From: Hirudinaria manillensis
Taxonomy: Eukaryota; Annelida; Clitellata; Hirudinida; Hirudinidae
Assembly: GCA_034509925.1 (NCBI GenBank)
Contig: CM067534.1
Coordinates: forward strand, 6,978,501-7,042,500
Direction: 5' to 3'
DNA: 64,000 bases
Shown here piece after piece: positions 9,966-58,532 of the stretch. Below the pieces are notes generated by a model that did no database searches, was not told the DNA's origin, and worked only from the letters and a program-made list of their open reading frames with translations. The translations under genes were made by a program, and so were the position numbers. Within the stretch, counting starts at the first letter, position 1. The number at the start of each line of letters is the position of its first letter.

Positions 9966-10116
9966 AGTCACAAAATTCCATACACAAAGGCATAAAATAA
10001 TGTTTATTGCCAGTGTCTTAGATACTGACTTATTTTTGAAGTTTTGTTCGTCGATTTATTAAAATAAATAGATTTTAAAATTTATGAACCGTAAAGGTTG
10101 GAAAAGCAGTAAATTC

Positions 10117-10184
<68 letters not shown>

Positions 10185-14058: not shown

Positions 14059-14208
14059 GTCACAACAGTCCATACACAAAGGCATAAAATAATGTTTATT
14101 GCCAGTGTCTTAGATACTGACTTATTTTTGAAGTTTTGTTCGTCGATTTATTAAAATAAATAGATTTTAAAATTTATGAACCGTAAAGGTTGGAAAAGCA
14201 GTAAATTC

Positions 14209-14281
<73 letters not shown>

Positions 14282-18199: not shown

Positions 18200-18350
18200 A
18201 GGCACAAAATTCCATACACAAAGGCATAAAATAATGTTTATTGCCAGTGTCTTAGATACTGACTTATTTTTGAAGTTTTGTTCGTCGATTTATTAAAATA
18301 AATAGATTTTAAAATTTATGAACCGTAAAGGTTGGAAAAGCAGTAAATTC

Positions 18351-19322
<972 letters not shown>

Positions 19323-20735
19323 TCATAATAATAATAATAATAATAACTGTTTTAATCTTATACTAATTATCACATAAGTAATTATAGTACCAGGTACCAA
19401 CGTAGCGGAGTCATCCATTAAACCCCATAAAAATCAGATTTTGGCTTGAACTCTCTCATGAGGAAATCCATGTTTTAGTAAGCCTTCCTTCCCAAAGTAG
19501 GCCCGCAATAATGCACTTTGGCCTCTTCCTCCTAGCGGATGTCTTTTACGGACGACCCCCAAATAATGTGCGGGTTCAAAAGAAAAGAATTATTGACCGA
19601 GCACAAAAAGCCCTCTTTGCTACGAACATCAGATATAATCTAAGAGTGATGCGTCTCAAACGAAAATAAATCTTTTAAATGATTTTAAAATATAAAATTA
19701 ATAATTAAATTGAATTACGTTCAATTCCATTTTATCACTGGCAATGAATCAGTATAAATTATAGGTAAGTTAATTACTTTATCGGTTTTTACCTAGTAAT
19801 TGATCAACTATCATTAGTAAAGCAGTACCTTTATGTAAAGCATGAGTCTCGTAGAGTGCGTTTTTACTTTTCCCGGCATTGTTGTCTTGAGAAACTTATC
19901 CAAGTTTGCGGGACGAGCTGGTGGCGGAACATTGTAGAATTCCCAGCGGTTCTGAGAGCCACTTACACGTCATATTCGACACCCGTCATGTTCCACCTTT
20001 ATATTTACATCGATTAGTAGGTCCATAGTCTCCTCAGATTATGGCTGAGGACTTTCTTGGGTGAGGTTGTTGTTGAAGGAACATTTTTCTAAATTTAAGG
20101 CCCTCTCCAAACAGGGCTTGGGTTCGAGAAAGAGCTGTTTTTTAACTTTCTAAACATATTTTATATAGAAATTTTTTGTTTTATTTCGTAAAAATTTGGA
20201 CAAGTTAGTTTTAATATTGGTTGAAAATAAGACCACGCAACCCAAGGTTCATACAGATTCACATGCCAGAATCATGGTTGTTATCAAGGCATAGTAACGA
20301 GGCTGCATGACAACAGAATGAAATTAAATTCCTCGCCATAAACAACAAAAATGGCAACCAGTAAGAATTCTTAGAAAATATTTTTACAGTTTCGTTTTTA
20401 AAAATAAACTCGGGAAATAAAACTAGCCGCACCGCATCGAAAACAGCGAAACAAAGTAATAGTATTTTTAACAAAAATGATTTTAATTAAAAATGTTATT
20501 TTATCTAATTATACTTCTTATTATTATTATTTAATGAATAATTCCTAAAATTATTTTTATAATCAGTTGTAAAATTTAATTTAATAAATTTTAATTAAAA
20601 ATTAAATAAAATTACATTTTGGTATTAATAATATTTAAACAATATTCACAATCTTTTTTCATTATAATTTCGTGCGAGCTCTTCCAAAACTTTATTTTAT
20701 AATTATAAATTTTTATACCGAGTATATTTTTAAAA

Positions 20736-23195: not shown

Positions 23196-24959
23196 AGGCA
23201 CAAAATTCCATACACAAAGGCATAAAATAATGTTTATTGCCTGCGTCTCTGATGTTGACTTATTTTTTTAATCAGTTTTTATGTTTGGTTCGTGGAATTA
23301 TTAAAATAAATAGATTTTAAAATGTATAAACCGTAAACATTAGAAAAGCAGTAGACCGTGGTATCTCAATTATTAAGCCGTATTTGTTTGCAACCGTTAA
23401 TTTTGTGAATATTCCGGTTAAGCCTTGGTCTTAACTGTAATCCTACCTTTAACTCTCTCCCTAAACCTAAGACTAACCGTAACCCTAACTTAACCCAAAA
23501 TTTACCTATTACTTTCAGAACTTTGTAACTTTGAAGTCGATGAATTCATTTTCTAACTAATTTAAACACGATGAAAAATCCATACTTGTGTTAAAAAACA
23601 TTCGTCAGTTCCTGCCATCTGGCGAATAGAATGTATACATTTCTTAATTATTTAGCTCAAAAATTGAGTGATACTAGGCTCAAGAGAATAAACGCAAAAT
23701 TAAATATTATTACTAGTAATATTATTATTATTATTTAATCTAATTATTTACTATTACGCTAATAATTGTCCTTGTGTTATGTATATAATTGTTTGTTTAT
23801 GTTACTTTAACCAAACATTCGCATTCCTACTTTAAAGCCGATAAACAAAGATACTTGACTCTTGATTTGTAAGAACTGGTTGCATTTGTTACGAACGTCA
23901 GACGTAATGAAATCAAAGACTTATGTTTTAATTAAAGACTTGAATCTCTTAAATTGAGTCACCGAAATAAGTCATCGAAAAAAGAACAGCGTTTTAAACG
24001 ACTTCCATGTTTTAAAAAAAATATCAATCAAATAGACTTAATTTTAACTATTAGTTTTCATAATTTCTGATCGATTGCTGGTTATTACTAGAAATAAATA
24101 ATTAGCATTTAATATCACATGTAAATCGCCAAACGTAAAACAATTGTATTTGATACCTTCATGTATCACATGATTAAAGTGATACTTTACCATCTTTACA
24201 GGACTTAAGTGGCCGATATTTTCTACCGTTCATGGATTTTAAAGAAAAAAAATCACTTTTATTTAAAATATTCTAGCACGAAACTTTTCCAGAAACTCCA
24301 CGAAAAACGAATCAAGAAACAAAAAAACTTCATTTTATTTCGACTTGTTTCCACGAAATTCGTCTAAAATCTGGCATATAAACCCCTGCTGCCAGTTATT
24401 GTCATTGACGACCGTAATGGGTTTAACCCTGGGAATGTAATTGTACACCGTAATTGTAATAACAAATTGTAATATCGTAATTCTAATGAAATGTAATTCG
24501 TAATATAAAAAAAAGCCTCAACAGTAACAACTGTTACATATCTTAGCAACTAGTGGAAATTCCTTGAAAATATTGTCTTAGTTTCATTTTGAAAAAAAAA
24601 TCAATTTGCGAGGCACATTCGTAGCAAGATGGCTCTGCATCGAAACAGCAAAAGCAAAGTAAACGTATTTCTAACAACAATGATATTTATTCAAAATGTT
24701 ATTCATTATTATTAATATTTAGTGAGTAATTTATAAAAATTATTTTTATTATCAGTAATAAAATTTTAATAACATTTGAGTAGTAATAAAAGTGAAATAA
24801 ACAATACGATTTTCAATCTTTTTGTTTCATAATTTCGTTCGTGCTCGGACAATAATATTATTGTTAGCTTGAAAATCGCCCAGTAACATTTACAAAGATT
24901 TACATTAAACATCTGAATCGAACCATAGTTAATTTTAATATTAGTTATATTTTAAAAAA
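23196..24959. other. Spacer between DDX23 copies 4 and 5
   Basis: After about 130 bases of shared 3' UTR the sequence is unrelated to the other spacers. It has AT-rich DNA, a degenerate CCTAA-rich patch at about 23400-23505 and no recognised gene. From about 24640 it becomes weakly similar to the shared DDX23 5' flank (the CATCGAAACAGC and ACAACAATGAT segments), leading to copy 5. Confidence 0.6.
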
Positions 24960-27446
24960 ATGCCTCATCAAACCGGCGATAATAAACGAGACTCGTCGTT
25001 GTCTCCGACTAGGAGCCCTTCGAAATCATTCTTCGACGAAAAGAGACGAAGGTCGAGATCTCCTCAAAGCAAAAACGACAACAAGGCAGACACTTACAGA
25101 AGTTCAAAGAGAGATAGAGAAACGAGCAGAGAACGATCGCCTAAGAGGCGCAGATCTCGGACACCGGAATACAGGAGACATCACGATGGTGACAGAAGAA
25201 ACAGAAGGGATGACAGTAGAGAACGAGCCGCTCGCAGACGTTCTAGATCGCCCGATGACAAAAGGTCCAAGGATTCTAATGCACCCCGAAGAAGCAGAAG
25301 GGATAGCAACGAGAGATCGCCGAGAAAGAAGTCTCCAGATACTGCACAAGACGTTGAAATGAAAGAGGAGAACGAACAACCCTTACAAGTGGTTCCTCAG
25401 AAAAGAGTCCCGTTGTCTCTTGAAGAGATTTTGGCTCAAAAGAAAGCCAAAGAGGAGGCTGAAAGCAAACCAAAGTTTCGGACGAAAGAAGAAAGAGAAG
25501 CTGAAACTGTTAAGGCGAGACAGGAGGAAGCTGAGCAAAGGCGTAAGAAAATGGAAGAAGAAAATAATAAGCATGCCGACTTTTTAAAGATGTCCAGGGA
25601 ATTAGCCAAAATGGACAGCTACGAGAGGAATAGGAGAGAAAGACTTGAAAAAGAGAGAGGCTCACTTAAAGGGGAGGATGACAAGGAAAAGCTCGTGGAG
25701 CTGAAGGAAAGAGAAAAAGAACTCGAAGTCATCAGGGAAAGATATCTTGGGAAAGTAGAACAAAAGAAGCCACCGAGAAGCAGAAGCGACCGAAAATTCT
25801 TGTTCGATTGGAAAACTTGCGAGGACACGAGCGTGGAATACAATCCCCTTTACAAGCACAAACACGTCGTTGAATTCTTCGGGAGAGGTCACTTCGCCGG
25901 CATCGACATCAAACAGCAAAAGAAGGAACGGTCGAAATTCTACCCCGATTTGATGGAAGAAAGAACGACCGCAGATCAGAAAGAAAAGGAAGATATTAGA
26001 TTGAAGGGAGTGGCAATCAAGGAAGCCAAGCAAAAGTGGGACGACAGGCATTGGACGGAAAAGGAACTCCATGAAATGACGGAGAGAGACTGGAGAATCT
26101 TCAAAGAGGATTACAACATTCAAACCAAGGGTGGAAAAGTTCCGAACGCTCTGAGAAACTGGGAAGAAGCTGCACTATCTGAAGAACTGACTGGAATCAT
26201 CAAGGAAATCGGATACAAAGAGCCGACTCCGATTCAGAGACAGGCCATTCCCATCGGTCTTCAGAACCGCGACATCATTGGCGTGGCCGAAACCGGCAGC
26301 GGTAAAACAGCAGCTTTCCTCATACCTCTCCTTTCCTGGATTCAAACTTTGCCAAAGATCGTGAGATACGAAGACGTTGACAACGGTCCTTACGCCATCA
26401 TTTTGGCACCGACCCGAGAGTTGGCTCAGCAGATAGAAGAAGAGACTGTCAAGTTTGGAAAACCTCTCGGAGTCAGAACCGTGGCCATAATCGGAGGTTT
26501 GTCGAGAGAGGATCAGGGTTTCAAGTTGAGACAGGGATGCGAAATCGTCATCGCGACGCCCGGTCGTCTTCTCGACGTCTTGGACAACAAGTACCTCGTC
26601 CTTCACAGGTGCACGTACGTCATTCTCGACGAAGCCGACAAGATGATTAACATGGGTTTCGAAGCGGACGTTCAGAACATACTCAAGTATCTGCCGGTCT
26701 CCAATCAAAAGCCCGACACGGACGAAGCAGAGGATGAAGCACTGCTGAAGGCCAATTTTTGCACCAAGGATAAATACAGACAGACCGTCATGTTTACGGC
26801 AACCATGCCTCCAGCCCTGGAAAGACTGGCAAGGAATTACCTCAGGAGACCGGCCACCGTTTACATCGGATCCGTAGGTAAGCCCATTGACAGAGTGGAC
26901 CAGATCGTCTACATGATCTCAGAGAACGAAAAGAAGAAAAAGCTGATGACCATACTGAACGACCATATCGATCCTCCTATCATCATCTTCGTCAACCAAA
27001 AGAAGGGAGCAGACGTGCTGGCTAAATCATTGGAAAAGATGGGTTTCAAAGCCACAACCCTTCACGGAGGCAAAGGTCAAGAGCAGAGAGAATTTGCTCT
27101 GGCGAGCCTTAAAAATGGCGACAAAGACATTCTCGTGGCTACAGACGTTGCAGGACGTGGTATCGACATCAAAGACGTTTCTCTCGTCATCAACTACGAC
27201 ATGGCCAAGAACATTGAAGATTACACCCATCGTATCGGAAGAACTGGTCGTGCAGGAAAACATGGAACAGCCATTTCACTCGTCACTAAGGATGACAGCG
27301 CCATCTTTTACGATCTCAAGCAGGTGCTCATGGAAAGCTCGAAGTCTGCTTGTCCTCCAGAGCTGGCCAATCACCCTGACGCCCAGCACAAACCAGGAAC
27401 TGTCGTCCAAAAGAAGCGCAAAGACGAAGTCCTCTTTAACGTGTAA
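24960..27446 (+). CDS. DDX23: DDX23/Prp28 U5 snRNP RNA helicase, array copy 5
   Basis: This is an intact 828-residue copy with complete motifs: [16 protein letters not shown] and [10 protein letters not shown]. It begins [11 protein letters not shown], has a two-residue insertion in the RS domain ([11 protein letters not shown]), and reads [10 protein letters not shown] where copies 1-3 read [10 protein letters not shown]. The DLME form is closer to what I recall of vertebrate DDX23, so copy 5 may be the least derived member. Its 5' flank is largely unlike that of the other units, and it lies at the downstream edge of the array next to single-copy genes. That is where an ancestral locus would be expected if expansion proceeded leftward. 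Introns are absent here too, so the intronless state predates the array. Confidence 0.95.
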
Positions 27447-35541: not shown

Positions 35542-37750
35542 GTATTAATAATACTAGTAATAACAATAATAGTAATATTAATAATAGTAATAACAATAAT
35601 AGTTTATTATTACTTAGTTTTGTTTTTAACCATTGGCACCATCATTATCACTCATCATCTTACTCTTTAAAATCGTCAACTGACAAAGAATCCCATTTCA
35701 GTCGAGCAAAGACAAGAAAACAAATTCGAGGGTTTGTACTCGCAAGTGATTCGTCCGAAAGACCCGTCGTCCAACTATGCGGAGGTTTGTCGTGGCGGGG
35801 GTTCGGAGGTCAAAACCCGGGACGAACAGACGTACGGTCGACCGAACGTCAAGAAAAGCACGAAATCCACCAGGCTTTATCCTCTGCTCGACATGCCTGT
35901 GAGTGGTCTTTTGTTTTCTTTATTAGTTGTTTATTAATTATTATTAATTAGTTATTTATTAGAAATCATTTATGATCTAATATCCCGAAGCAGCAGATTT
36001 GTAGTTTTGTTTTTGTCGACTGTTTAAGTGGCTTTGGCCATTCGATCGCTTTGTAAATAAATAAATAAATAAATGAATAAATAAATAAATAGATAATTAA
36101 ATAAAATAAAATAAATAGTTTTTTTTAAATGAAATTTCTTCCTTTAAAGTGACTTTATTTAATTCAAATTCTGACAATTCGTAGCCGACTTCAGCTCAGA
36201 AACCGTCCGTCCCCATCGTTTACGTGAGTCCTTTCAAGCCTAACCCGCAGAAAGTCGAATCCGATTCGGACAGCGACTTCGAGACTCTGCCGAGCACGCG
36301 CGAAGGGAAGAAGTTCGGAGAAGTTGGAGCCAAAATGGCCTCCATCAAGTGGTTCAAGACTACGCAGGCCAAACAACTCCTGCAGGATAATGGTTTCTAT
36401 GCAGACTGGTTCCATGGCATAATCTCTAGAAGGTGAATAAATAATTAGCATTAATAATAATAATGATAATAATAATAATAACAACATAACTTTAAGTACC
36501 AGAAAAAGAAATACTTTCGAAATTCTAAAAGCATTAATAACACTTGCTTATGAGTTGCTTCAACCTTAAACTTAGAAACTGAATCCATCCTCATCAGTCG
36601 TCGCTCGCAACAGGAACGCAGAAGCGCTGCTGAAAGACAAGCCGAGGGGCTGCTTCCTGATCAGGTTGGCCGAATCCAGGTTGGGTTATTCCCTCTCCTT
36701 CAGGGGCAAAGAAAAGTGTCGACACTACATGATCGACGAGGTCGACGGGGGCAACTTCAGGGTCGTCGGCGAGAGGGCGGTCCATTCGTGCCTCCTGGAT
36801 TTGGTCGAGTTTTACAAGAAGGTCAGAGAGAGGGCGAGCGTGCGTCCATGCGATTGTTGGACAATTGGGATTAATTAATTAGTTACGGGCATAATTGATT
36901 CTGTTTAATTTGTTTGTTTGTTTGTCTAATCTAATGTTGGATGTCATTGATGCGGATGTTGGCTTGTTGCAGATGGGGTTTTGTTTGCTATCGGGTTTTT
37001 ATTTTAGACAACAACTCTTTTTATAGATTGATCATGAAACTGATTTATTATAAATTTTATATTTATTAAATTAATTAATTAATAAATATTCAGCACAAAA
37101 TCAGCAACTGGAAAGGCTATCTCACGGTACCATGCGAACAGGTAGGTCGCCAAGATGTGCAAATAGTTAAGTCTTGATCGCTATGTTATGAAACTATAGG
37201 ACAATTGTATCTCATCTGATAAGATATTTTGTATGTCATTTGATGCTTTCGACATGTTATGAGATTTGTAAGTGGGAGGGACTCAGAATAAATTAACATA
37301 ATCGTCGTTTAACGAAAGCTTTGAATTACTTTTGACAGACGGACGGGGAATGCGACTATGAGGATCTCCTGCTCACCTCAAAAGACATTCAAGAAGTGGG
37401 TGTTCTCAACATTCTTAACTGTTGTTGCTGCTGTTGCTGCTGTTGTTGTTGTTGCTGCTGTTGTTGCTGTGTTGTCATCAAACGAGTTTATTAATTACTT
37501 CGTAAACATCCGAACATTGTAATGCTTTTTGAAGGTGCTCGTGTTATATTTCCCTCAAGTCTTCACTAATAATATGTTAGCCATAAAATAATAATATTAA
37601 TATTAATTATTGGTAATAATAATAATAATAATAGTAATGAATTAATAATTGACATCTATGTTCTTTTAACAGCTGAGACAAGCAATGAATCGTCCAAGAG
37701 TCGAGCCTTCGGCACCTAGCCATTCGTCCAGGAAGGCAATTAATATTTAA
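28711..37750 (+). CDS. Divergent unconventional myosin with C-terminal SH2 domain
   Basis: Twenty-six exons join in phase to 967 residues: 28711-28791, 29063-29134, 29323-29447, 30066-30168, 30492-30594, 30905-31040, 31776-31881, 31969-32094, 32211-32319, 32593-32822, 32939-33025, 33288-33344, 33433-33555, 33624-33738, 33995-34041, 34288-34341, 34520-34642, 34781-34866, 34983-35078, 35332-35420, 35702-35898, 36185-36432, 36614-36821, 37094-37141, 37339-37395 and 37673-37750. The motor has P-loop GISGSGKT (94-101), switch I NENSSRF (143-149), an altered switch II DFPGRE (367-372, usually DIFGFE), ICCIRP near 590 and the converter end KIFLKQQQ. No clear IQ motif is seen. After a linker of about 140 residues comes an SH2 domain (830 to about 930) with WFHGIISR and FLIR, whose Arg855 should bind phosphotyrosine. 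The expected role is an actin-based motor recruited to tyrosine-phosphorylated partners. Two adjacent genes remain possible, but phases run through and no internal start stands out. Confidence 0.8.
33848..33898. repeat. (ATT)n microsatellite in a myosin intron
   Basis: A pure ATT/TTA run between the exons ending at 33738 and starting at 33995. Confidence 0.9.
34696..34734. repeat. (GATT)n microsatellite in a myosin intron
   Basis: About nine consecutive GATT units lie just upstream of the exon at 34781. Confidence 0.9.
37421..37476. repeat. (GTTGCTGCT)-type trinucleotide repeat in a myosin intron
   Basis: A run of GTT and GCT triplets follows the exon ending at 37395. Confidence 0.85.
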
Positions 37751-38942: not shown

Positions 38943-41900
38943 ATGATTGATTCCTACGGCAATATTAGTACCTGTGGTCGAGGTGAGGCTGAGAAAAGTT
39001 ATGTGATAATATCATATTCGTAAGGAAAGTGTTATGACATTAAATTTTATGGGGTTTTTTTTTAGGAGTTATCTCGAACGATAATAAATTTCTAAGTAGG
39101 ACCAAATCCGATGCAAGCAGTCTCAGAAGTTGCAAGACTTTTCGAACTTCATCGGACGATGGCTTTTGCCGTGTTCCTAGTCACAGGGACAGTGGCATAC
39201 TCGTCGATTGTGACTTGTTCAAGTATGATTCTCTAGGCCGGCATCGACAATCATCGCATCCACAACATTCTGATGGGTCGGGCAGTGTGCCAGCTAGTCC
39301 TTTTAATTTTGATCGTCTGGGCATGAAGGAAGATTCATTGCGTTTGGACAAAAGACATGACACTCCCACCACTGACCGTAAGCAGTACCCGTTTGCAATT
39401 TCACACTTTTTGGCAGGAGAATACCTGGGCGAACTTCCGAATGCTCACGAAAATTCCCAGGGAGGTAAATATTATATGACTTCAGGTATTATTTTAAATA
39501 TCTCGTTGTAAAGATAACGAAGACCAAAATTTGATATTAAGAACTGGTGTCGAAAAGATTATAAGCTGCTTATAAACAAACGCTTTGCATGGGTTCAATA
39601 AATGATTGTAACACTCTATTTTCAGCCAAAGACCAATCCTTCGATGAAAAGTCAGAAAAGGCAGATCGTGTGTCTCCCTCAGACAAGGAGGAGCTGGAGC
39701 AAAAGTCCTCATGCATCGTGGAAAGATGGAAAAGTTTCATATCGAGGACAACACTACATGGAATAAAATACGCATTCGATGACGGCCCTGTGAGACTGAG
39801 AAGGTGAGATGATGCAGCATGCATTTTTCTTATAATTTATTTAAATTCATCGCTTTAATTCAATCAATAAACATCCGAAATAAACAAAATGGCTTCGAAA
39901 TTTGCACTCATTACAATGAATCAACGCGTCACTCGTAGGATCATCTGGTTGGTTTGCATCGTTTCCTGCGTCGGAATCTTCATCTACCAGGCAATGGACA
40001 GACTGGTGACTTACCTCCAGTACCCTTCCAATGTCAATCTCAAGGTCGTTTATACGAGAAATATGGAATTTCCGGCCGTCACCATCTGCAACTACAACAA
40101 GCACAGGTGATGATGATGACTATACCAAAGACGACGATGAGGATGATAATGTCAATTCTTTCCAAACTGTCAGATTGACCGCAGTGGTCGACATGAATAT
40201 GTATGACTTTATCAGCCAAGCCTATCGACCCGGCTTCGAGTTATATTTTGACGGCATCGTAGGAGATGACTTGGACATGAACATGACGGAATTTATCCTC
40301 AGCACGTCACACCAACTGCATGATTTCATAGTCAGGTGAGTTGAATCAAAATTTGTGCAATTCCTTCATTATTTAACATTAATTTTCAATTACACACTGT
40401 TATTATTATTATTAATCGATTCCAGATGCACCTGGCAAGGTCATCCGTGTAACGGAAGTGCTACGTTCGTCCAGAGAATGACAGACTTTGGTCTCTGCTA
40501 CACCTTCAATGGAGACGCCGACAACAGACTGAGGGTCGTAAAAGCAGGTCGTTAAATTAATTAAAATGCAAATCACATCCTCCTGGATATTCAAGATGCT
40601 AACTTGAATATTTATGGAAAATTATGATCTTAATCGTCGCGAAATCCGTAAATAAATTATGCTAAATGTCTAAGGTTCTCGCTCAGCTCTCGGAGTAATT
40701 TTGAATGTCGAACAGTACGAATATATGGCTGGCCCAGACCAAGAAACCGGTATTAAGGTAAGCAACAACAACAACCAACTCCATTGGTTATTACTTAACC
40801 AATATTATATGACCAATTTAATATTTAAGCCAGACGATACCTTTCCTTTTCCAACATTCCCCTACAAATAGATCCTACTCCACGACCCTCTCGAGTTTCC
40901 ACAGGTTAGGGACCTCGGCTTTGCTGTCTCACCGGGCATGCACGTCCTGGTAGGAGTGAAGAGACAGTGCCTCGAGAACCTTCAGGCCCCCTACGGAACC
41001 TGCCAGCCTGGGGCGGTTGCACGATCCCAGTGTCTGGCCGTCTGCACTTCCAATGAAGTGTTCGGAAGATGTGGCTGCAGAGATCCACACATGAAGCCGC
41101 CCTCGAAATACGACGATCGTTGGTTATCGTTTGACGTTAACGTCTGATGAGCTTGTTAATATAACGAATAATAGCAATAATAATAATAATAGTAATAATA
41201 ATAATAATCTTATTATAACGTTATTCTTAATTGATATTATTATTACTGTTTAAGTGATGACATCTATTGACGTAATGGTAATAATGAATTATTAATTAAG
41301 ATTAAATAATTAATTAAATAGGATATTTAATGAATTACAAGTTGTCTGGAGTTGACTTTGAATATCATTATATTTTTAATGCAGAAGTTTGTTCCCTCGC
41401 AAAATCCTTCCTTTGCGTGAAGGAAAATCGTGGTAAGATCTCTCGCTAATCCTCTTCAACATCTCTCTGCTAAGTAACGAATATAACGACACATGCTAAT
41501 TTATGTTAATTTGTGTAAATATCTCCCAAGATCTGTCGAATAGGAACGTTCAGTCCCTTTGCGAATGTCCAAATCCGTGCAAGATGAAGACGTACGACCC
41601 TCTGCTCTCCTACGCCAGGATGTCAGGGGTCGACTTCGTTGAACTTGACGTGGATTACGATCACGTCCTACGCAGGTGACTTGAAACTGTATTGAAGCGA
41701 TACCTGGATAAGCGGTAGGATCTGGGTAGGACTAGGTATTAAAGAATACCCGCCTGTGAATTGTCTTTTGCCCATCACTTGGATAAGTGACTCTATTGGC
41801 ACATTCTATTAATGGCTTGTAATACTACTTAATTTAAATTAAAGACGATTTTGTGATTAGTTCGTAATAGAACAAAGAAAAGGGCAATTCTAAAACCTTG

Positions 41901-43735
41901 TTGATTCTTAACGTAGCTACGAAAGAGCAAGAGCCACGTTTGAGAAGGTCGATCAAGCGAGCATCGAGAGGAACAAAAACCTGGTGGAAAAATATTTTTT
42001 CAACTTCCACCAACTGCTGGAAAACATTAGCGAAAGTCATTCCATCGTGAAACACGGAGACGAGAGCCTAAAAACAGATCAACGGGTGTTGACAGAGTAT
42101 CTGAAGAACTACAGTGCTCTCTCGAATGACTTCACGATGATCAATAAGAGCTTTCACGACAAAGTCCCGCTAGCCACAAAGCTTCAACCTGACGTGAGCG
42201 TATGGCAGACCATGGTTTGGGATGAATACAGAGGCCTGAACGCCTTCCTCGACATCCAGGGTACTTTCAGTGGACTTCTGGCTGTACTGGAGTCGTGCGC
42301 CGAAGCCGAGAGAAACTCTGACAGGTCCCCGATACTGCCTGAGGACTGCGATGACGAGGACGAATCCATCAGAACGTACCTCTTTTTCCGGAAGAATGTA
42401 CTCGCGAAGTGGGAGTCCATTGCTAATGAATCTCTGCTGATGCTTGCGGAGATGGAGGACAAATACCAGGGAACTCTCTACCGTCTTTTCCACGGCACGG
42501 ACTTTGAATATCACTCCAACGACACCTATCGGGAATGTCTTAAAGTCATCAACGAAACGGTATCTTTCTGGCTGCCTCGTTTTGAAGTCTTGGTGCACGT
42601 CCAATTACGCAACTACCTGACCGTAAACAGTTGGAGAATAAAATTGGAAATAGCAAGAGATTTCGAGAGCTTCTACGATCTCAACAAAGTCCAGGACAAT
42701 GCAGTCGTCCAATCGAATTTCCTCGCTTGTCAGTTCTTTATGAAGCCCAAATGGTTCGATAAGAATTACAACTCTTTCCTCAACTACATGAACAACGCCA
42801 ACCAGGCATTCCTGGGACAGATTTCCCTGGAAAACTCCCTCCTTCGGCAAGCAAGAGAAGTGCAAAAAGTCTTGAACGATTCCTTCTCCCTTACTTCAGA
42901 CTCTCTCAGAGACTTTCTCCTGTCAGAAAGTAACACTTCTAAGAAGGACCTCTGCCAGCTCTTCCACTCTGAAGAACTTCTGACTTCCGAGGCAGTCAAG
43001 CAACTCCAGTTGAAGTCCTACTTGTCGGATTTCCAGCAGCTACTAATCAAGATATCGGACGTGCACAGCAACTTAGCCAAAGCTTATTCTTACGCCTTCC
43101 AGTTAGCCCTGCCCCCTCTCTCTGACTCTGTCATAGAAGGGCTACAACTCGTCCAAGTTGCCAGAAACGTATCAAAGGATGTTGGGTATGAAGAAGTTCA
43201 TCGCTGGTTGTCCGTCTTGAAGTCTGAAAGGCGGTCGGGCGTCATCGGCGTCCTCAACGTTTTCTACGGGAAGTATGTCAAGGTCATGAGGCAGGTTCAA
43301 GGTCGTCTGATTAACGTCATCCATTCTTTCGACTCCGCCCATTCGGAGTTGAAGGCCGATGTCAGGGCTTATTCGGAGCTTTTGAAGTTGGACGATGACT
43401 TTGTCAGGTGATTCGTACATTTATGTCACAATTTGATAACGATTACACGAAGTATGTAATTGTATGAATGAAATTTAATTACAAAATTGGTAAATACAAC
43501 GAATCCTTGCAGGGAGAACTTCATAAAAGTGGAGATATTTTACAAGGAATTGAGCTACGAGCACATTCAGCAGCAGGTCAGTTTCCAAACCTTGACCCTT
43601 CTCAGCGAAATTGGGGGTCTCCTCGGGCTGCTACTTGGAGCCAGTGTCCTCACCGTCTTCGAATTCATCGACTTCGTCGTCGTCCTCCTCGTCGGACAAT
43701 TTTCTTACAATTGTTGTCGCCTCAGAAGACGCTGA
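38943..43735 (+). CDS. DEG/ENaC-family cation channel subunit with a 497-codon extracellular insert
   Basis: Twelve exons join in phase: 38943-38982, 39066-39464, 39626-39803, 39939-40106, 40174-40335, 40426-40547, 40687-40757, 40872-41118, 41385-41432, 41531-41675, 41917-43407 and 43513-43735 (1097 residues). A long cytoplasmic N-terminus carries the gating HG motif (TTLHGIKYA, 191-192). TM1 starts near 206 and is followed by FPAVTICN. The ectodomain has CYTFN, SPGMHV, PYGTC and the Cys cluster CECPNPC. TM2 has ENFIKVEIFYKEL, LLSEIGGLLGLLLGAS and the selectivity-filter GAS (1066-1068). Such channels are Na+-selective trimers, often gated by peptides or protons. Residues 527-1023 come from one exon inserted between the Cys-rich domain and TM2. 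It is helix-rich and has nine N-glycosylation sequons, so it should be extracellular. Skipping it leaves a normal 600-residue channel. The exact N-terminal exon is uncertain. Confidence 0.88.
41917..43407 (+). other. Giant symmetric (phase 2-2) exon encoding the channel insert
   Basis: The exon is 1491 bases (497 codons) with a CGTAG acceptor and a GTGATT donor, both interrupting codons after the second base, so inclusion or skipping preserves frame. The product lacks recognised domains, has only five Cys, is rich in Leu, Ser, Asn and Glu in helical patterns, and carries nine N-x-S/T sites. An imperfect internal repeat (FHQLLENISESHS and FQQLLIKISDVHS) suggests it grew by duplication. Confidence 0.75.
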
Positions 43736-44083: not shown

Positions 44084-47000
44084 CTAAATATAGTATTCCT
44101 TCTTAATAGGGACTTCTGGCTGTTTGTTGGCTCCTGCTATGAGGGCATAATCTGCATTGTCAAAGTATTCGGCATCTTTGGCCTCATAAGTCTTGTATTC
44201 TCTCTTCTGTTTGTAATAATATCTGGTCAGAAGGAAGATTATGCCTGCCAACAGGATGAGGAAAACTCCTATGCAGCCTGGAATAGTGGAAAACGCATGA
44301 AGAAACATTAAACAAGGTCAGGTCATGACCTGACTATTCAATAAATGAATAAATTAATTAGTGAGATTAGTTAATATAGGGCCATATCTTATTGCCAGAG
44401 ATGAGTTTTTACCTCCGATGAGGGCCTGGTCTCCGATGGTGAGAAAACCGCTACCAATGTTACCCCAGTAGGGGGTGGTGGTGCTGAGTCTGAGGGAGGG
44501 TGTGGGCCTGAACTCCATGGGATCGGGGTCGTGGGTATATTCTTCAAATCCACACATGTCTTCTCTCAGAACCCCTGCACAAGTTAATGATTGTTATATT
44601 ATAAACAATTAATTACAGCTATTGAGATTTATTTTTGAAATGGCTATTCTCAATTGGATGATTTGAAGATATTTAAAATAATTTTGACTGATGGCAGATC
44701 TTCTGGTTACCTTTTGGTTCGACGTAGATGTTTCTTCCACGGGGGTCTTGGAAAACCCTCTTAAGGGGGAACTGGTTGTCCCACTGGCCCCTGAACAAGC
44801 AGCCCCTGTAACCCTGGCCAGAAATGGTGGTTTCTGAAAAGACATAATATAGGATGTGATTGAAATGAAAACGAAGAACAACCCAATCACATTTCTGAAA
44901 GCTTAGATGAGATTTGAAACGCAGTGCCCATGTTTACATTAAATATTCATTGTTTTAATTTTTTTCTAATTTATTGGTTAATTACATTATAATTATCCGA
45001 TGCGGCTCATTAAAATCATTGCCATCATTATCACCATCACCTATAAATGTTCTCACCGTTCCTTCCGAAGTAGATGAACCTGGGACTGTCCAATCTGGTG
45101 TCTGCATCCGAGGGAACGTTTTCCCATGTCTTCGATGTAGGGGGGTAGTCGTCAACCTGTTGTTATTAATTAACAATTATTAATAATAATGATAATTATT
45201 ATTGTTTCTCTTATTATTCTCAATATTAATATATTAATATTATTATATTAATAATATTATTATATTAATTAATATTATTATATTAATAATAAATATTATT
45301 ATATTAATAATAAATATTATTATATTAATAATAAATATTAATATATTAATATTAATATTATTATATTATAATCATCCTTAGTACCGGTGAAGTTATTGAC
45401 AAGTGCCGAGCATTATAATTATGCAATAATTTAATTGTTATAAATTACAATAGAGAATCGAATGTTAATCCGTGGCACGAGATCCCACCTGGATGGTCAG
45501 AGTGGATCCTTTGTTGCTCCTCCTGACGCGGACGACGTGCTGCTGTCCGTTCGTGAGGTCGACGTAGGGGTCGAGTATGGTGTTGACCTCGTCCCTGTAC
45601 CAGCCCACGTCTATGATGACTTTGACTCCACCTGGTTTTCAGGATGTGAAAGCCATTGATGATAGAGTAATGGATGATTAAGATGATCTATTGATAGAGG
45701 CTGATGATGTTCACCACGATGATGATGATGGCTGAACGTCTATTTAAAAATATTTTTAGCCATTTTCAATTCAAACCGATAGCCTTTTTTTTTTATATTT
45801 ATTTCAGATTGGTTGTTGCCAAATAATAAAATCATTAATTATAATTATTAATTAATTATCATTAGTACAAGCATAAGCTTTGTAGTTTACTTTGAATTTC
45901 ATGCCATGAATTAAAGATTGTTTCCAGTCTGCTATTGCGAATATTATATTCATATTTATATTTGTATTTATAGCCGATGCTATTATTTGTCGTGCCAACC
46001 GTTGTTGTTGATTTCAATGGAAATGTAGTCAGGCTTGGTGTCGCTCCTGATAAACATGATCTGCCCCCTCTTCTCCTGGGTGGAAAACCCGATGGTTATG
46101 TCCTCCTCCGTGGTGGAAATGTCCCCGGAACTCGGATCGAATTCGTACTTGATCATGTAGTTGGGCTGCATGAGAACTCCGATTTCTGCAATTAATGTGC
46201 AAAATAGATTATAATATCGTCGGATGACTCTATGATTACAAAATGACATCCTCGAAGCTACGAGTTGCTTATTTAAATAAATTAGAATTAATTTGGAGAA
46301 AAATGATGATGAAAATAATTTTTTTTTGAATGAAGTCAGTGCCGGTCACCTCTTCCGCAGTTCCATCCCCTGAAAGGTGTGTATGCACAATCGCACCAGT
46401 ACCTCGAGTAGTACTCCACGCATATCCCCCCGTTGAAGCACGGGTTGCTGGCACACTTTGGGACGCATCCTGTCGGGAACAATTTTCAAGTTAACTTTGC
46501 CACAATTTTAGTAACGTTGATTTTAAATTATGATAATGATGATGATGATAATGACGACGGTGATGATGATGATGTTAACACTCACCCGGTGAAACTCCAT
46601 AAGTGGTTTCCCCTCTTTCCACGATTCCTTTCAAATCCTGAAGTTGTCCGTTGACTTGGAAGGCTCTGATGCAACCGACGTAGCCCTGGCTGTAATCCAC
46701 TGCAGCACCTACATTCGTGTAATTAACATAAATTGAATATTAATGAGTTACTACCCGCTGCTATACGAATAAATAATTATGGAATAAATAATGAATTAGT
46801 GATTTAGGAATAATGATTTTAAACATGGATATTTCAATCAACTCGGTTGTTAATTTCAATTGAAGCAAAGTCGACCACTTAAAATTTGATTGGATGAATA
46901 ATTAGGTCATGAGGTCAACTTACCAACAACTAATTTGCTGGTGAGTTTGAAAGCCCTGAACTCCTGGTCGACCTGCTCGTCCAGGTAAATGGGGTCCTGT

Positions 47001-50000
47001 TGGTCCACTCTGAGCATGGCTTGCTTCCTATTACGCTCAACCTGAGAAGGGATGATGAAGATGATAATGATGGTGATGATGACGACGACGACGATGAGAA
47101 TTACTACCTAATAACAGTAGATGATGAAACGTCAAAGTCAACCGACCTGAACCGTGTGCCAGTTGTCGTCGTTGATCGGATACGAAGTTTGCAATTCGAG
47201 GGTTTGAATTCCGTTGCCGACGTCAAAGCGGAACTGGATGATGTTTCCGACTGAAGGATGAGAATGAGTCTCAGTACCCTGACGCCCTCAATCATCCACC
47301 TAACCATTCATCCATCCATCCACCCACCAATACATCCATCTATCCATCCATCCAACCATCCATCCATCCATCTACCACAAAAAAAACTTTCCCTATCTGC
47401 CCTTTTCAAGCAACTTACAGACAATCCTGACTTCCAAAAAGCTGTACGGTCCGGTGTTCTGGAAAATGATTCCGTCGGTTGCCGTGGTTTTCATCTGAAA
47501 CCTGATGTCCCCGGAGTGCGTGCCGGGGTAGGTCGGCAGTTCCAGGGTGGCGTCCTCTTTTCTGAAGGTCACGACGTTGGAAAACATGTCTGTTTGGGAG
47601 ACGAAATATATATGACGAGTGAAGTGTGATTGATTTGTAAATTTAGAAATTTAGAAATTTAGAAATGATATATGCTTTCATTAAGTACTATGCATAATCA
47701 CAGTCATCATCATCAGCTTGAGAAGCAAAATAATACAGACTCCCATTAAATTTGTATTGTGATTATCATCATCACTGCCATCATCATCATCATTACCATC
47801 ATCTGCAGCACTTACTGTCTCCCTCGCATCTCAGAGGTCCTAATATGTGCTTGCCCCACTTCTCGTCCCCTATGATTCCGGTGTCTCCGAAATGAAGCTC
47901 CTTGACGGGCAGTCTGTCCTTCTCCTGGAGGAAGCCATCGTCGAAAACGTCGTCGTGCGCGAGTCCGGCGTCGCAGTTGCACGGGTTGTTGAGCTTCGTG
48001 GCTCCCATGTACTTGCACTCCATCTTGAGACCGCAGGCGCACTTCTTGCTGTCAGGGGCCGAGCCCCCCCAGTACCTCTCGACCGTCATCTCTTTGCCGA
48101 CGAACCAACCCCAGCTGGGCACGTTCAGGTCCGTCGAACCTGCGTCGGAATGAAAGTTGAGTGAGCGAATAAATTATGTTTATGAGTCATCTTTTGATAT
48201 GAGTCGTTAAAAATGCTAAAATGCTTCTGATCAGTTCAGGTGCTCGTGCAAGAATCATTTCTTGTAAAGGAATCATAACATGGATGAGCAACATGTGTTG
48301 ACGAGTGTCCAATAATTATAATATATATGCCTAATAATAATAATAAAATTAGAGAGTTTTAAAATAGGGTAATTATTAATTATGGTAAATAGGGTAATCA
48401 GTAATTATGTGTAGTGGGAAATAATAACTTTCGAGAGGTTATAAGACAGACCTAGGTTTTCTTGATTATCATAAACTATTGCTATGCAACATTATGTTAT
48501 GTTATGTTAATGTATTAATGATATGTTAATGTTATGCTAATAAGTTATGCTAATGTCAAGCAAAAAACCTTTCAATCACCTGCATCGCTGAGCAGCTTCG
48601 ACTGAAAGCAGGTGTACCTGATGTACTGCTCACAGTTCAACGCCCTTCGTACGATCTCATCGATTTCTTCCTTGTACGTGTCGTACACGATACTCCTGAC
48701 GTACGAGCCCGGCTCCGCGTATCCGTCGACCAACATTTCCTCCAGCGAGTCGTGACTCAATTCGAGTATTGGATTGGCTCGCTCTGCAGGTCACAGAGGT
48801 CATACAAAGGTCGTGTAAAGGTCAGGTCAAATTATAAAGATCAAATTGTATTAAGAAAGGACATAAAGACCATTTGACTTTTTAAAAAAAACTATAGTTC
48901 ATCGTTAGTGACTAAAATTGAAACTCAAAATGGCAGATGAATAAAATGGATCGAAACTTTACCTTGGAAGTTGCACCTGGTTTGGAATGGCTGGAGTGGT
49001 CCTGAGTCGTCAATGTCAATCATCATGTCCTTATAAGGCAAGAGACTGTTCAGCATCTTCGCCTCCACGCACGAGACCAGGTATTTGGCTGATCAACATA
49101 ATTTATTAATGAAATGCAAATCAGAAAGGCATTTAATATATTGCATCATGTTGTGAATGAGCGTCAATTGAATTAACTTAAAAAATATTAATTAATATTC
49201 CGCAACTGCATTCATATTTTCGAATTGGAACAAAGTCAGAAAGTCACGACGCAGACTCACATCTGTGGCAGACGGCACCACCGTATCCAGTGTCTCCGCA
49301 ATCGCAGCTGAAGGTCTCAAATACCTGAGAGCATTTGCCTCCATGTTCGCAAGGGTTAGGGTCGCACCTGGCAACAACGTGGATGATGTCGATGAAAAAT
49401 CATGTGTTTAAGGCCCTTATTTTATCATTTTGTTTTACACAAATTAATCAGTTAACCAATCACTCATTCACTATTGTTAACAAAATAGTTAGCATGTTAG
49501 CTTTTATTATAAGTTAGCTGTTATTATAACTAATATGTCAGATCTGCCAGATCGTCGCAAATGCAAGACTCGAAGTCCTTACCTGTCCTGCAGACCGCAT
49601 GTTCCGTTGATGACTCCGTAGAGGGTGACCTTCCCGATGGACTTGGCATTTGCAACGGAGTCCTCCGCGATGAGGACGTTCCTGCCCTGAACGAAAACCT
49701 TCCTCAGACATCCCACGAATCCGGTCTCTCCGCCGAAATCGTCTTTCCCTGAGCATGCATTTTACAAGAAATTGTTGAAATAAAATAAAATAAAACTCAA
49801 AAAGAAAAAATTGATTGGTCAGAAATTAATCTAAATTCATTGACGATTGCTTCCCGAAGACATTCATTGGTCAGAAATCCCATCGAAGCGAAACTTGCCT
49901 CCGATAAGAAAGTCGGGGGAGCTGGTGAACTCGAGGTGCCTCTCGGAAACATCCGAGTCGCCGTCAACCGAAATCGTGACTTTTCCGGGCGTCCTGTCTC

Positions 50001-53000
50001 GACTGGCTATGATGTCGATGTCCACTTTGTGCCACAAGCCATCAGTGAAAGAGTCCGACTCCGACATGGGGTCACCTGGAAAGGGGTTGGTTTGGTTTGT
50101 TTGTTTGAGATGAAAGACGAGATTTTAAAGGAGATGCTCGGTCGTTAGTTAATTAATCATTCATTAGTTCACTGACTGTTAATGATGGCGTTGTGTACTT
50201 CCGGATCCGCGTCGGTCTTGATGCTGTACTCCAGGTGGCCGTCTTCGTTCAGTTTCACCTTAAATCACGTCGTCGCCGACTTAGCAAAGTCATCGTAACA
50301 TTGGACTCGAGAGTTCAAAAAACATCCTTTTGTTAATCTGCCAGGAATCAGACTTACGATGAACCTCTGGGTTCCTGGCGTGGGATTGGTCAGGAGCAGG
50401 AGTCCGTCTGGGTTGTACGAACGGAACTCGAACGACACTTTGATCCTCTTGTCGGGGGGTATGTCTGTGACCTCGATGTAGTTGTCGACGTACGGCATGG
50501 ATGCGGGGGTGATGACCTCTGACTGGAAGAGGAGATGATGGTGATGATGACGACGATGGTGATAAGGATGATGATTGTGGAAAGAGATTTCAATAGGTTC
50601 ATTAAAGATAGAATCCAATAATCATGGTCATGATGAAAGGTTATTTTTCAGAGCAAATGTGGAAAATCTTACAAAAAAAGTAATATTTATAAACAACATA
50701 GGAAATAATCTTCAATTCAAATGAATTTACTATAATTCAATAATTAATAATATAATTCAAAAAAAGAAAAGAAAAGATGGCAGCATCACCACCAGCATAA
50801 CTGCTCACCCTGCAGTAGCCATAAATGATGTCCCCATAAACTGTAAACCTCTGCTGATTGGTCCTTGAGTCCTGTATCATGTTCATGTAGTTGAACCAAA
50901 CGTTTTCCATGCACCCTGTGAAGTTCTGCCTCACTCTCAGCCTCTTTCCTGGTTGCAGGAAGTTGTCTATTCCACCGAGATGGATCTGACGGAAATGATT
51001 GTGATAATGATATCATAGTAGGTGATTTAAATAGAAATAATCTGGCAATTTCAGGAGGACAAGATATGACATGTTGACAATCATCCACATATTTATTCTA
51101 AAATAGAACCAAAAAATCCTAAATGGCATCGACTCCTCCCACCTTTCTGTCGAGATCCAATTGGATGAAATCCCCGAGGGTGACGTTATCGATTTGCATC
51201 CTGTCGACGCTGAGCCAAACGTTTCGTTGGTCCCTCCGCACCTCGACGTCGTGCCATTGGTTGTCGTCCAGCAGACTCCCCGCCCTTGTCGTCGTGTCTC
51301 CGGTTTCCTGAGCCGTTGACCCTGTGATGTTGCAAATAATAATTAATTGATTATAGTGAATTATAACTTTAAGAAATTATAGTAATTTATGTCAAATTTG
51401 ATACACTTTACAATTAAAGCAGTAACATCAACAATAATTGTTGACCTATCGACACAGTCTTAATGAGGTCAATCTACAACTAATGTAAGCATAAACGAGA
51501 CTCCTTTGTAAATGTGTTTCAGACGAGTCCCGGAGCTAAAACGAACTTAGAACTTCAAAAGCATTCGAACCCACCAAGGTCGTAGTTGAGGTAAAGTTTC
51601 CCTCTGATCATCTCGAGAATGAGGTAATCGCCCTGATTTCCATCCGCATAGAACAGCAGGCCATCCGCCTGCGTGGTCTTGAACCTCAGCTTCAAGAGGT
51701 CCGTTCGGAACTGGACGTATTGGTTCGGTCCGCTGATGTCGTACGAGATTCTCGAGTTGCCGTCGAATCTGGCACCGTCGGAATCTGAAAAAAAAAATAT
51801 TCGTGAATTCCTGGTGAAATGAAATTCATGGATTCCTCTGCAAGTGAAAATCCAAGTCGAGCATAATTTTCAAGTATTTGTTGATGTAAATAATACGTTA
51901 CTAATAATGTTCATTGAAAATGTAAACAGTGGTTACCTCGAAAAAGATAAAATATGTTGACAAAGAAATGTTGAAAAACATGAATCAGTAAATTGTAAAT
52001 GGAATGTGCCAACTCATAAATAACGGGTTAGAATTTAAATGATTAAATTTGATTTAATCACAACAATCACAACCATGAAAATTCACTGCAAATTCATGCT
52101 CACCAAATCTGCATCCATGCAGCTCGGCCCTGAGCGAGATGAATCTGTTCCAACGCTGAGGATTGATGCGGATGTATCTGGCGATGAGTTGGTACGGAAG
52201 GGAATTCCTCACCACCGTGTTGTCGTCAATGTTTCCTTGGAACAACTGAAGGAAAGCAATTTTTAAATTTTAATTAATTTTAAAATTAACCTTAATTTGG
52301 TTCCATTTTAGTATTTCTCCTTCAAATACTTGAAACCTATGATTTATTTTTAAAATCTTAATCATCAGACATTAACTCAGGTGGAGTTAATATATTATTC
52401 ATTAGTATTATTAACATATTACATATTACTAATCGTTAATAATACTAATTTTAATATTACTTATTAAAATAGAAACCATGACCAAATGGTTCTGCAAATG
52501 GGTCATATATCTAGAAATTGTTGTTATTTTGAAATTAAAAATTTAAAAAAATAAAAAAAAAACTATTAAAATGTCTTCCAACCATTGGCGTTCCAAATTC
52601 ATTCGTGTAGACTCTCCAAGTGCTGTTGTCATCAGAGAACCAGATGTAATATTCGAGGACGTATTCGTTGCTTCCTCTTCTTCCCTGCGTCTCGATGTAC
52701 TTGATGACCTGCCGATATCCGAGATCTATGCTCAGGAACTGATTGGAATCCGTGGTTCCGGCAGTCCACGCTCCTCCGCCTTTGATCATCGAAGTAATAT
52801 TCGTTAAGTGATAATCAATTAATAAGTGAATAGTTAATGGATAAGTTTTAATTAAACAATATTTACTTTCAGATCCATATGAACTTATAAAATTAATTTT
52901 ATGTAGAATTTCAAACCTTTCCATCCTCTCAGTCTTGCATATTTTGCATCTCGGGCCCTGTTTGTTTTGGAAGTTGCCCACAAGTTGCTATCGGGTATGT

Positions 53001-55672: not shown

Positions 55673-56027
55673 CTCTCCGTGTCGCGAAAACAAACTTTCT
55701 TAATATAACATGTGTTCCTTAACAACTGAAAATGAATCTATGTTACATATAAAACATTAAAATAAATAAATTACAAATGGAACTCTGAATTTTTTTTATA
55801 TTTTTAGAAATTTTTAAATTTTATATAAGTTTGCGAAGGCTATTTTGGCTATATTATCGCTATTTACCCTCGTGGAATTGTTTTTGTTTATCGACGCATT
55901 TACTTTTCGAGAGCTTTAACATCATCCTGCAAATGGGAGACGATTTTAATATTCAGTTAAATATTGTTACATCTAGTTTTGGTAAGAATGCAAACAATTC
56001 ATCGGTTGGTTTCAGGATTTTCATTCC
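55673..56027. promoter_or_regulatory. Bidirectional promoter region DPCD/DDX31
   Basis: Fewer than 360 bases separate the start codons of two divergent genes, so their promoters must overlap. No TATA box is placed convincingly for either. An ATG at 55935 followed by 16 codons and a GTAAGA donor could be a 5' exon of DDX31, but its phase does not join the helicase frame. Confidence 0.5.
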
Positions 56028-58532
56028 TTGCCTATAATTTTTTGTACTTTAATTTCTTATGACATAATTCAATTACAGGATATTCTTGATAGCATCATAT
56101 CTCAGCATAAAAAACCGCAGGGAAATGCCTTGGGAAAATCAAAAGGGATCGCTCTGAAGACCAAGCCAGGACTTGCTAAAAAGGATATATCCTCTGGTTC
56201 AGTAATAACTAAAACTGCAAAACCGTTGATATCTGTTTTGGCTAAAAAAAAGAAGGCATCTTTGGGAAAAGAGGAAACGTTTGAAAATTCCTCATCAACC
56301 ATTGATTTGAAAGCTAACAATAACACAAGTCGGTTATTGAACAACAAGGCAAAGTCTGCAACTTATAATACTATTAAATTTGATGGTGGCTCAAATAAAA
56401 GTGATATCAAAACCATTCTCAAGGCTCAAAAAAAGCCTGCGAAGGAATTGAACAAACGGAAAAGAGTCTCTTTTGGGAACGATGAGATTTTTAAGGAGGA
56501 CGACGCTCCCCAGCCTTCCAAGAAATTCAAACCATCGGCATTGTTTGCCAACAATCCAAGAATTCCCAAAGTTGATTGTGATGATGTGACACCACTTTCT
56601 GAGAATGTTTTCTCAAAGACTTCCTTTGCATCTCTAAACCTTCACCCATTCATGGTTTCGAACCTCGAAAAGATGAATATAACAAAATTGACTGCTGTAC
56701 AAAAGAAAGCCATCCCTGTGATCATGCAAGGTAAAGACATTCTTGTAAAATCACAGACAGGCTCAGGGAAGACAATGTCTTATGCGATACCCATAGTTCA
56801 AGAACTCCAATCCATGGAGCCAAAGATCCAAAGGACGGATGGCCCCTATTGTGTTGTGGTTGTGCCCACGAGAGAACTAGTTGCACAAAGCTACGAAGTC
56901 ATCATGAAGTTGGTCAGTCCATTCTTGTGGGTTGTTCCTGGCCAATTGATGGGTGGGGAGAAGAGGAAGTCAGAAAAGGCCAGAATAAGAAAAGGCATGA
57001 ACATTATCGTCTCGACGCCAGCGAGATTGGTGGACCATCTTGATCACACTTGTTCTCTCGAGCTGGGCAAGATCAGATACCTCGTCATAGACGAGGCTGA
57101 CAGAATGCTTGACATGGGCTTTGAGAAAGACATATCCAGAATTGTTTTGGTGATGAACAATAAGTGCCAGAAATTCCAGACTATCCTCCTTTCTGCAACG
57201 CTTAGTCCTGGAGTTGAGAAATTGGCAGGAATGAGTTTGGAAGAGCCAATCAGAATTGATATGGCACAGTCCATCAAGACTCTTGAGGATGGAGCAGAAG
57301 CCGTCGAAGAGTTTGCCACTCCCTCCAGTCTCCGGCATAACTTTGTCGTCGTGCCCAGCAAGTTGCGATTGGTCACTTTGGCTTCCTTCCTGCTCTGGAA
57401 ATGTCAACTTAACACGAAGCCGTGCAAAGTGATTGTGTTTCTTTCTACTCAGGGTGCCGTGGAGTTCCACCACAGCCTCTTTCAATCGACCTTCTTTTCG
57501 CCGGAAGACAATGACGAGGCCGTCAAAGATTTCGAGATTTTCAAGCTTTATGGAGACATGGAACAGAAAGATCGCATGAGGATTTTTAAAGAATTCAAGG
57601 CAGCTAAGTCTGGGGTTCTTCTCTGCACAGACGTGGCTTCGAGAGGACTCGATCTGCCCCACATTGAGTGGATCGTTCAGTACAATACTCCCGGCACGCC
57701 AGCAGATTACATCCACAGAGCTGGAAGGACTGCTAGGATCGGTACTAAAGGCAATGCCTTACTATTTCTTGCTCCGTCTGAGGTAGAATATGTCAAAATT
57801 ATGACGGAACACAAGATAGCGATGAACGAAATGCCAATGGACAACATCTTGAAAAACCTTCTCATTCAAGCTCAAGTGGGGAAGCTCAATCTAATACACA
57901 AGGGTAACGTCCCGAGTACCCTGCAGGATGCGGCTGCTTTCTTGCAAGCGCAGTTCGAAAACAACTTGTCGCAGAACAAGAGCATGAGGACGTTGGCCAG
58001 AAAAGCCTATCAGTCATTCATAAAGGCTTACACCACTTATCCGGCTTCCCTTAAACACATCTTCCACGTGAAAAATCTTCACTTGGGTCATGTGGCGACC
58101 AGTTTTGCCCTGGCGGAGACACCGAGTGGGGTCTCGAAACTCGTGGGAATTCATCACAAGAATAACAAAAACGCTGTCAAAAAGTTCTTCTCGTCGAAGG
58201 CGGCCAGAGGGCCGAGAATGCCGGCACCAAGTCAGGGTGCGAAGAAGATCGTTCGCGATAGGACGGAAAGGATAAAGATTCCGTTCGGTTTTGACAAGAC
58301 CTCCCTCAAGTCGAAGTTAGTGAATGTTTTTGATTTTTCAGAAACAGTACACATTATTGATAATTATTAATCTTTAATCATCATAATTACTATTTACTTT
58401 TACATTGGATTTCCATAAAATGCTTTTTAGCTGACTGATATCATATCATGAAAATGTGACTTAAATGAATGATTCCTTTTCAGATCCAGTTCAACTTATG
58501 GCAACTTCAGTGAATTTGATGACGGACTCTAA
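56028..58532 (+). CDS. DDX31: DDX31 (yeast Dbp7-type) nucleolar DEAD-box helicase
   Basis: One long exon (start taken at 56028, coding to 58315) joins a 49-base last exon (58484-58532) through a GTTAGT donor and TTTTCAG acceptor, giving about 778 residues. A basic low-complexity N-terminus is followed by FKPSALFANNPRIP, the Q-motif region LTAVQKKAIPV, motif I SQTGSGKT, PTREL, MGGEKRKSEKARIRKG (diagnostic for DDX31/Dbp7), DEADRMLDMGFEKD, SAT, CTDVASRGLD and HRAGRTARIG. The DUF4217-type C-terminal part contains QSFIKAYTTYP and LHLGHVATSFAL. The family acts in 60S ribosomal subunit assembly in the nucleolus. The first ATG is uncertain: residues before LQDILDSI look like intron or UTR, and a CAG acceptor lies just before GATATTCTTG, so true coding may begin in an upstream exon. 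AATAAA lies at 58577. Confidence 0.93.

Follow-up and report, generated by a model that had tools for sequence, protein, structure and literature searches.

The locus raises the question of what an open exon of nearly 500 codons is doing just upstream of the TM2 exon of a DEG/ENaC channel gene of Hirudinaria manillensis: where on the channel its product would sit, whether other genes share it, what it could contribute, and whether splicing can remove it.

Gene model and position of the insert

The channel gene lies on the forward strand at 38943-43735 of the window (the whole stretch analysed, 64,000 nucleotides, C9:6978501-7042500), and was modelled as 12 exons encoding 1101 residues, with the exon joins checked for phase, the start set at an in-frame ATG at 38943 and the stop at 43735. 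The first coding exon (38943..38982, MIDSYGNISTCGR) is modelled from that ATG, a GAG/gtgagg donor and a phase that fits exon 2. It is followed by 39066..39464 (cytoplasmic N-terminus; splice signals and phase), 39626..39803 (the TLHGI motif preceding TM1; alignment to ASIC1 and ASIC2) and 39939..40106 (TM1 and FPAVTICN; translation, ASIC alignment and a genome-wide PF00858 search). The ectodomain continues in 40174..40335 (phase, with partial ASIC alignment), 40426..40547 (phase, ASIC alignment and PF00858 search), 40675..40757 (phase and ASIC alignment) and 40872..41118, which carries ectodomain cysteines (phase, ASIC alignment and splice score) and ends in a weak donor, ATC/gttggt, whose poor score (-1.9) leaves the junctions of the insert unaffected; this donor may be misplaced in the model. 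After a short coding exon (41385..41432, VCSLAKSFLCVKENR; phase and ASIC alignment), the exon at 41531..41675 encodes CECPNPC and the first part of the knuckle and ends in phase 2 (Pfam, phase and ASIC alignment). The insert exon, 41917..43407, runs from phase 2 to phase 2 and is supported by its open frame, its splice sites and its homology to an insert on C10, while the last exon, 43513..43735, encodes RENFIKVEIF, TM2 with the GAS filter, and the stop (Pfam ASC, 1.1e-17).

All the motifs of the original prediction, TLHGI, FPAVTICN, CECPNPC and GAS, are present in the translation, and we take the first and the last two to be the HG motif, the cysteine-rich domain (CRD) and the filter. Four stretches of the gene scored over cut-off in the PF00858 genome search (profile positions 16-83, 154-215, 216-324 and 396-455), so that membership of the DEG/ENaC family is marked by profile matches over TM1, ectodomain and TM2 as well as by the HG motif, the cysteine-rich domain and the G-x-S filter. 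When the insert is left out, the protein of this gene (hereafter C9) ranks nearest in the PDB to ASIC2 (5.2e-56), ASIC1 (7e-51) and ASIC5 (4e-47), with ENaC alpha (3.2e-31), FaNaC (2.8e-21) and a pickpocket subunit (4.7e-13) below them. It shares with the three ASICs the HG motif, CRD and GAS filter, and, presuming that we have placed the five proton-gating residues correctly within the C9/ASIC alignment, it keeps two of them (the equivalents of K211 and E416), whereas the equivalents of H73, D78 and E411 read S, K and K. With three of the five lost, gating of the channel by acid through the ASIC route appears doubtful; these residues are described in the accessible portion of PMC9949801 as serving proton gating and as fairly conserved among ASICs. 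The same paper gives the ASIC ectodomain as ~300 residues, whereas that of C9 is ~790 or slightly more (292 preceding the insert plus 497).

In the ASIC1/ASIC2 alignment the insert falls between the strand following CECPNPC and RENFIKVEIF, and the joined flanks (...CECPNPCKMKTYDPLLSYARMSGVDFVELDVDYDHVLR-RENFIKVEIFYKELSYE) align, with a 3-residue gap, to the ASIC segment extending from the final cysteines up to the TM2-entering strand. ASICs have ~30 residues in this interval, as had been stated, whereas C9 has ~500 extra. The longer splice form of human ASIC1 reportedly also has a short extra exon in the interval before TM2, although it adds tens rather than hundreds of residues. The exact borders of the knuckle helices within our alignment are an assumption on our part. 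In the published division of the ectodomain, as given in the available text of PMC6827283 and PMC10178586, the knuckle helices lie within that ASIC segment; alignment position and subdomain division together thus place the insert in the knuckle, which tops the ectodomain, rather than attached to the wrist as originally proposed. Counted from the ATG at 38943, it comprises residues 531-1027, not 527-1023.

We found no description of an insert of such size in a DEG/ENaC channel in the open-licence PMC literature, as far as its accessible text extends. The nearest precedent is in Trichoplax, for which knuckle insertions have already been published: TadNaC likewise carries extra residues in the knuckle subdomain, between the knuckle helices, but those insertions are predicted loops, whereas the C9 insert is ~500 residues long and helix-like (PMC6827283, available portion). 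Judged against that precedent, the C9 insert is an extreme new form of knuckle insertion. FaNaC is also a DEG/ENaC channel, with a peptide pocket flanked by alpha-6, a helix of the knuckle, but the match of FaNaC to C9 is far weaker than those of the ASICs and the accessible part of PMC11026163 mentions no such insert. The EGAS (EGF plus ASC) proteins of C. elegans are likewise DEG/ENaC subunits with an added domain (PMC10424705, in excerpt), but there the additions are EGF modules, whereas the C9 insert has no Pfam match above cut-off and five cysteines; a Pfam scan of the insert, CRD and TM2 exons found no EGF domain in any of the three. Databases may already contain gene models from other species in which inserts of this kind have passed unnoticed.

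Paralogs with an insert and the question of one origin or two

The PF00858 search covered the full genome of 148.4 Mb in 23 contigs and gave at least 64 matches; 17 stretches around multi-exon matches were examined. Grouped by hand, the matches represent at least ~30 DEG/ENaC genes or fragments, four of them with an insert. Twelve single-ORF genes of 507-580 residues have no room for one, and in twelve multi-exon genes, among them L046 with a long intron-like gap, the interval looks short by eye; two fragments, C2:9768060 and C12:9207163, make up the rest. Several other genes of the genome have a knuckle interval of roughly 40-90 residues, again by eye. The family is partly clustered, with intronless copies on C2:9974093-10034856 and multi-exon ones on C6:2297500-2545500. 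Among 14 control genomes, PF00858 also scored over cut-off in Thermotoga maritima, a surprising match for a family from animals.

The three further genes with an insert at the same place are C10 (L040), C12a (L043) and C12b (L044), and the four inserts measure 483-549 residues each. The exon models of C10, C12a and C12b were assembled manually, guided by homology; the junctions of C12b are approximate, and the C10 model includes one GC donor and one insert exon whose 5' end is possibly too long. In C10 seven exons, lying between those for the CRD and TM2, together encode the insert. In C12a the exon with ECPSAC continues intron-free into ~400 residues and one more exon precedes TM2, a design repeated in C12b. 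Upstream of the C12a ectodomain exons and in the same orientation (L043, minus strand, ~7770-6640), hand-joined exons encode a kringle domain (7.7e-17), with a MAM-like match in the same stretch (0.00013, below cut-off); this may be a second insert in the C12a channel or a separate gene.

The inserts of C9 and C10 are homologous and can be aligned along most of each: 127 of 489 aligned residues are identical, and the local score lies 20.6 s.d. above 500 shuffles. Used as a genome query, the C10 insert found the window exon at 2.1e-11 and returned only C10 and C9. The window insert returned only itself, even at E <= 10, because the C10 exons are short; against the open frames of the examined loci it matched one C10 exon at 6e-5. 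The C12a and C12b inserts (~30% identity) find each other in the genome at 1.0e-27 and 1.5e-43, and the C12b query gave one weak extra match (C9:9421807-9422097, E 0.066).

Between the two pairs the inserts could not be aligned (local z 0.7, 1.5, 1.7 and 0.2), and hhalign gave a probability of 0.3% (E 0.19, 22 columns); whole-length scores were slightly raised (z 2.2 and 3.0). The case for one origin thus rests on site, size and a moderately supported tree. That tree was built from the channel cores, with the inserts left out, of 13 hand-picked sequences: the four insert genes, L032, L034, L035, L038, L041, L042, L004, L009 and L013. It omits the two fragments, nine of the twelve single-ORF genes and six multi-exon genes (L033, L036a, L036b, L037, L039 and L046); the rows of C12b, L038 and L032 are partial, and the branches of L042 and L032 are long. 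The four insert genes cluster together (82/79; recovered in 81% of 200 bootstrap trees), the cluster being made up of C9 with C10 (94/92) and C12a with C12b (99/97), beside L038 and L032, both of which lack an insert.

The site, size and helical signal of the inserts, together with the tree, are most simply explained by one old insertion that has since diverged. Two independent insertions, one in C9/C10 and one in C12a/C12b, at a site tolerant of extra helices are a less probable alternative, though one to be taken seriously: there is no convincing similarity between the insert pairs, the knuckle interval varies in other genes of this genome, and knuckle insertions are carried by Trichoplax channels too (PMC6827283, in its available part). 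Against a double origin stand the grouping of the four genes in the core tree, the site, size range and helical signal common to all four, and the phase-2 intron that lies directly before the TM2 exon, at the 3' edge of the insert, in C9, C10 and C12a.

Character and possible function of the insert

The original prediction described the insert as rich in sequons, poor in cysteines, helical in character and without a recognisable domain, and this description has stood. The C9 insert holds nine N-x-S/T sequons (shuffle mean 3.9, with nine or more in 1% of 2000 shuffles) and five Cys; in C10, C12a and C12b the sequons are not clearly above shuffles (0.35, 0.115 and 0.71). Periodicity at 100 degrees, as expected of helices, is above shuffles in all four inserts, with z 5.5 in C9, 4.6 in C12a, 3.6 in C12b and a weak 2.1 in C10, whereas the ectodomain preceding the insert in C9 gives z 0.6, not above shuffles. 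A helical character is therefore supported, if indirectly, by this sequence measure. Pfam gave no family above cut-off for the C9 insert (best E 0.0098, below cut-off) and nothing credible for the inserts of C10 (best 0.056, below cut-off), C12a (minus its last exon) or C12b. No PDB chain matched the C9 insert (best E 0.48), and a PDB search with the C9 insert, the C12a insert and two pair profiles yielded nothing credible (best E 0.31). Collections of viral and non-animal genome contigs contained no relatives of the inserts, a result that is uninformative on other animal species.

Internal duplication of the inserts was considered, with best z values of 2.6, 3.0, 0.1 and 2.0, which are unconvincing because each is the best of many cuts. 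Extra membrane segments are unlikely in C9, C12a and C12b, where the best 19-residue hydrophobicity means are 1.25, 0.91 and 1.08; the most hydrophobic 19 residues of the C10 insert average 1.54, which we take to be close to the value normally required of a membrane segment.

The extracellular domains of DEG/ENaC channels are what these channels use to detect protons, peptides and force. We put at about even the chances that C9 is an ASIC-like subunit of this family whose knuckle, the helical cap bounded by the final cysteine-rich strand and by the one running to TM2, has gained a helix-like domain of ~500 residues that is constitutive and probably glycosylated. Such a domain would always be included in the C9 channel and would stand atop the trimer in up to three copies per channel, where ligands outside the cell, the matrix or partner proteins could dock onto it; a load on the domain, or binding to it, might then act on the pore via the knuckle and the neighbouring subunit's finger. 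In alpha-ENaC, glycans on the knuckle and the palm are important for sensing shear (PMC10178586 and PMC10148893, in the text available), and alpha-6 lies beside the FMRFamide pocket in FaNaC (PMC11026163, likewise in part); by analogy with both, the knuckle insert perhaps serves as a docking or force-bearing module.

It is unlikely, by our estimate, that the insert is instead fast-evolving filler, or an aid to assembly or trafficking with no sensing role. No known domain was detected in the inserts, and they diverge faster than the cores (identity 25.8 vs 41.4% for C9/C10 and 31.4 vs 52.8% for C12a/C12b), as filler would; but insert identities remain well above noise, ~500 open codons have been maintained in four genes, and homology is visible within both pairs.

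A subfamily whose knuckle is enlarged would show that this cap tolerates a whole extra domain with the channel intact, and offers a natural test of whether ligands or extracellular tethers dock at the knuckle. A bolder version, which we advance only tentatively, is an old four-gene subfamily in which each subunit bears a new helical knuckle fold, so that a trimer would hold up to ~1500 extra residues above the pore and be gated by a ligand or tether. If true, this would be a sensor at a site not described, in the literature accessible to us, as holding a large domain.

Splicing of the insert exon and other sequences nearby

The insert exon (41917-43407) has 1491 bases, acceptor cgtag/C, donor CAG/gtgatt and phase 2 at both ends, confirming the frame-neutral exon of 497 codons first reported. 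It lies in a stop-to-stop open frame of 499 codons (41912-43411); if codons are treated as independent, the probability that a particular frame stays open for 497 codons by chance, given the local base composition, is ~8e-13. From this symmetry it had been proposed that the exon is an alternative cassette, by which splicing switches between a long form and an ordinary channel of about 600 residues. The skip product itself is as predicted, an open frame of 604 residues that joins ...DHVLR-RENF at near-normal ASIC spacing, with the 3-residue gap. Symmetric exons are common, however, and matching phases by themselves say little in favour of a cassette. In C10 the phase is 1 at the end of the CRD exon and 2 at the start of the TM2 exon, so that skipping of the block shifts the frame, and in C12a and C12b there is no intron between the CRD exon and the insert at its 5' edge. 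Nor are the splice sites of the C9 insert exon weak: in a small leave-one-out test over the 11 introns of the gene, its donor ranked second (10.4) and its acceptor fifth (3.8). The presence of the insert at the same spot in three sister genes points to a built-in part of the subfamily rather than a removable cassette and, since these genes keep no means of frame-neutral removal, a splice switch is possible but distinctly unlikely. The first reading thus survives as an unrecognised, helix-like insert in a frame-neutral exon of a DEG/ENaC gene, without the wrist attachment or the switch.

Codon usage, trained on the gene's other exons, fits the insert frame best (0.132, against -0.339 and -0.274 in the other forward frames and 0.067, -0.198 and -0.383 in the reverse ones), although the antisense frame at 0.067 means that codon usage alone separates it narrowly. 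That slightly positive frame, and a gene model built from genomic sequence alone, could suggest that the insert exon is noncoding or part of another gene, an artefact made very improbable by the matching phases on both sides and by the homologous insert at the same place in C10.

Elsewhere in the window, an SH2 domain is encoded at 36576-36878 (+; Pfam, 1.2e-11), and opposite-strand frames adjoin the channel at 44084-52987 (-); Pfam places an F5/8 type C domain in them at 52538-52987, and they include neurexin/CNTNAP-like pieces judged by eye only. Five tandem DDX23-like DEAD-box helicase genes occupy 7458-27443 (+; Pfam on the first copy only), at 7458-9962, 11551-14055, 15715-18293, 20709-23192 and 24945-27443. 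Four of the five are single open frames of 828-835 codons, and the third is split into several frames. The frames that follow this broken copy (18448-19244, +) include a weak match, below cut-off, to zf-RVT, a zinc-binding tail of reverse transcriptases (18448-18813, +, 0.00016). A second type of DEAD-box helicase frame, SPB4-like and of 794 codons, lies at 55986-58367 (+). Elsewhere on the same contig, C9:3026446-3027786 matches COX1 with a score identical to that of contig C23, which has 15,581 bases and is probably mitochondrial, its COX1 reading through with mitochondrial code 5; the equal scores suggest either that a copy entered the nuclear genome recently or that sequences were joined in assembly.
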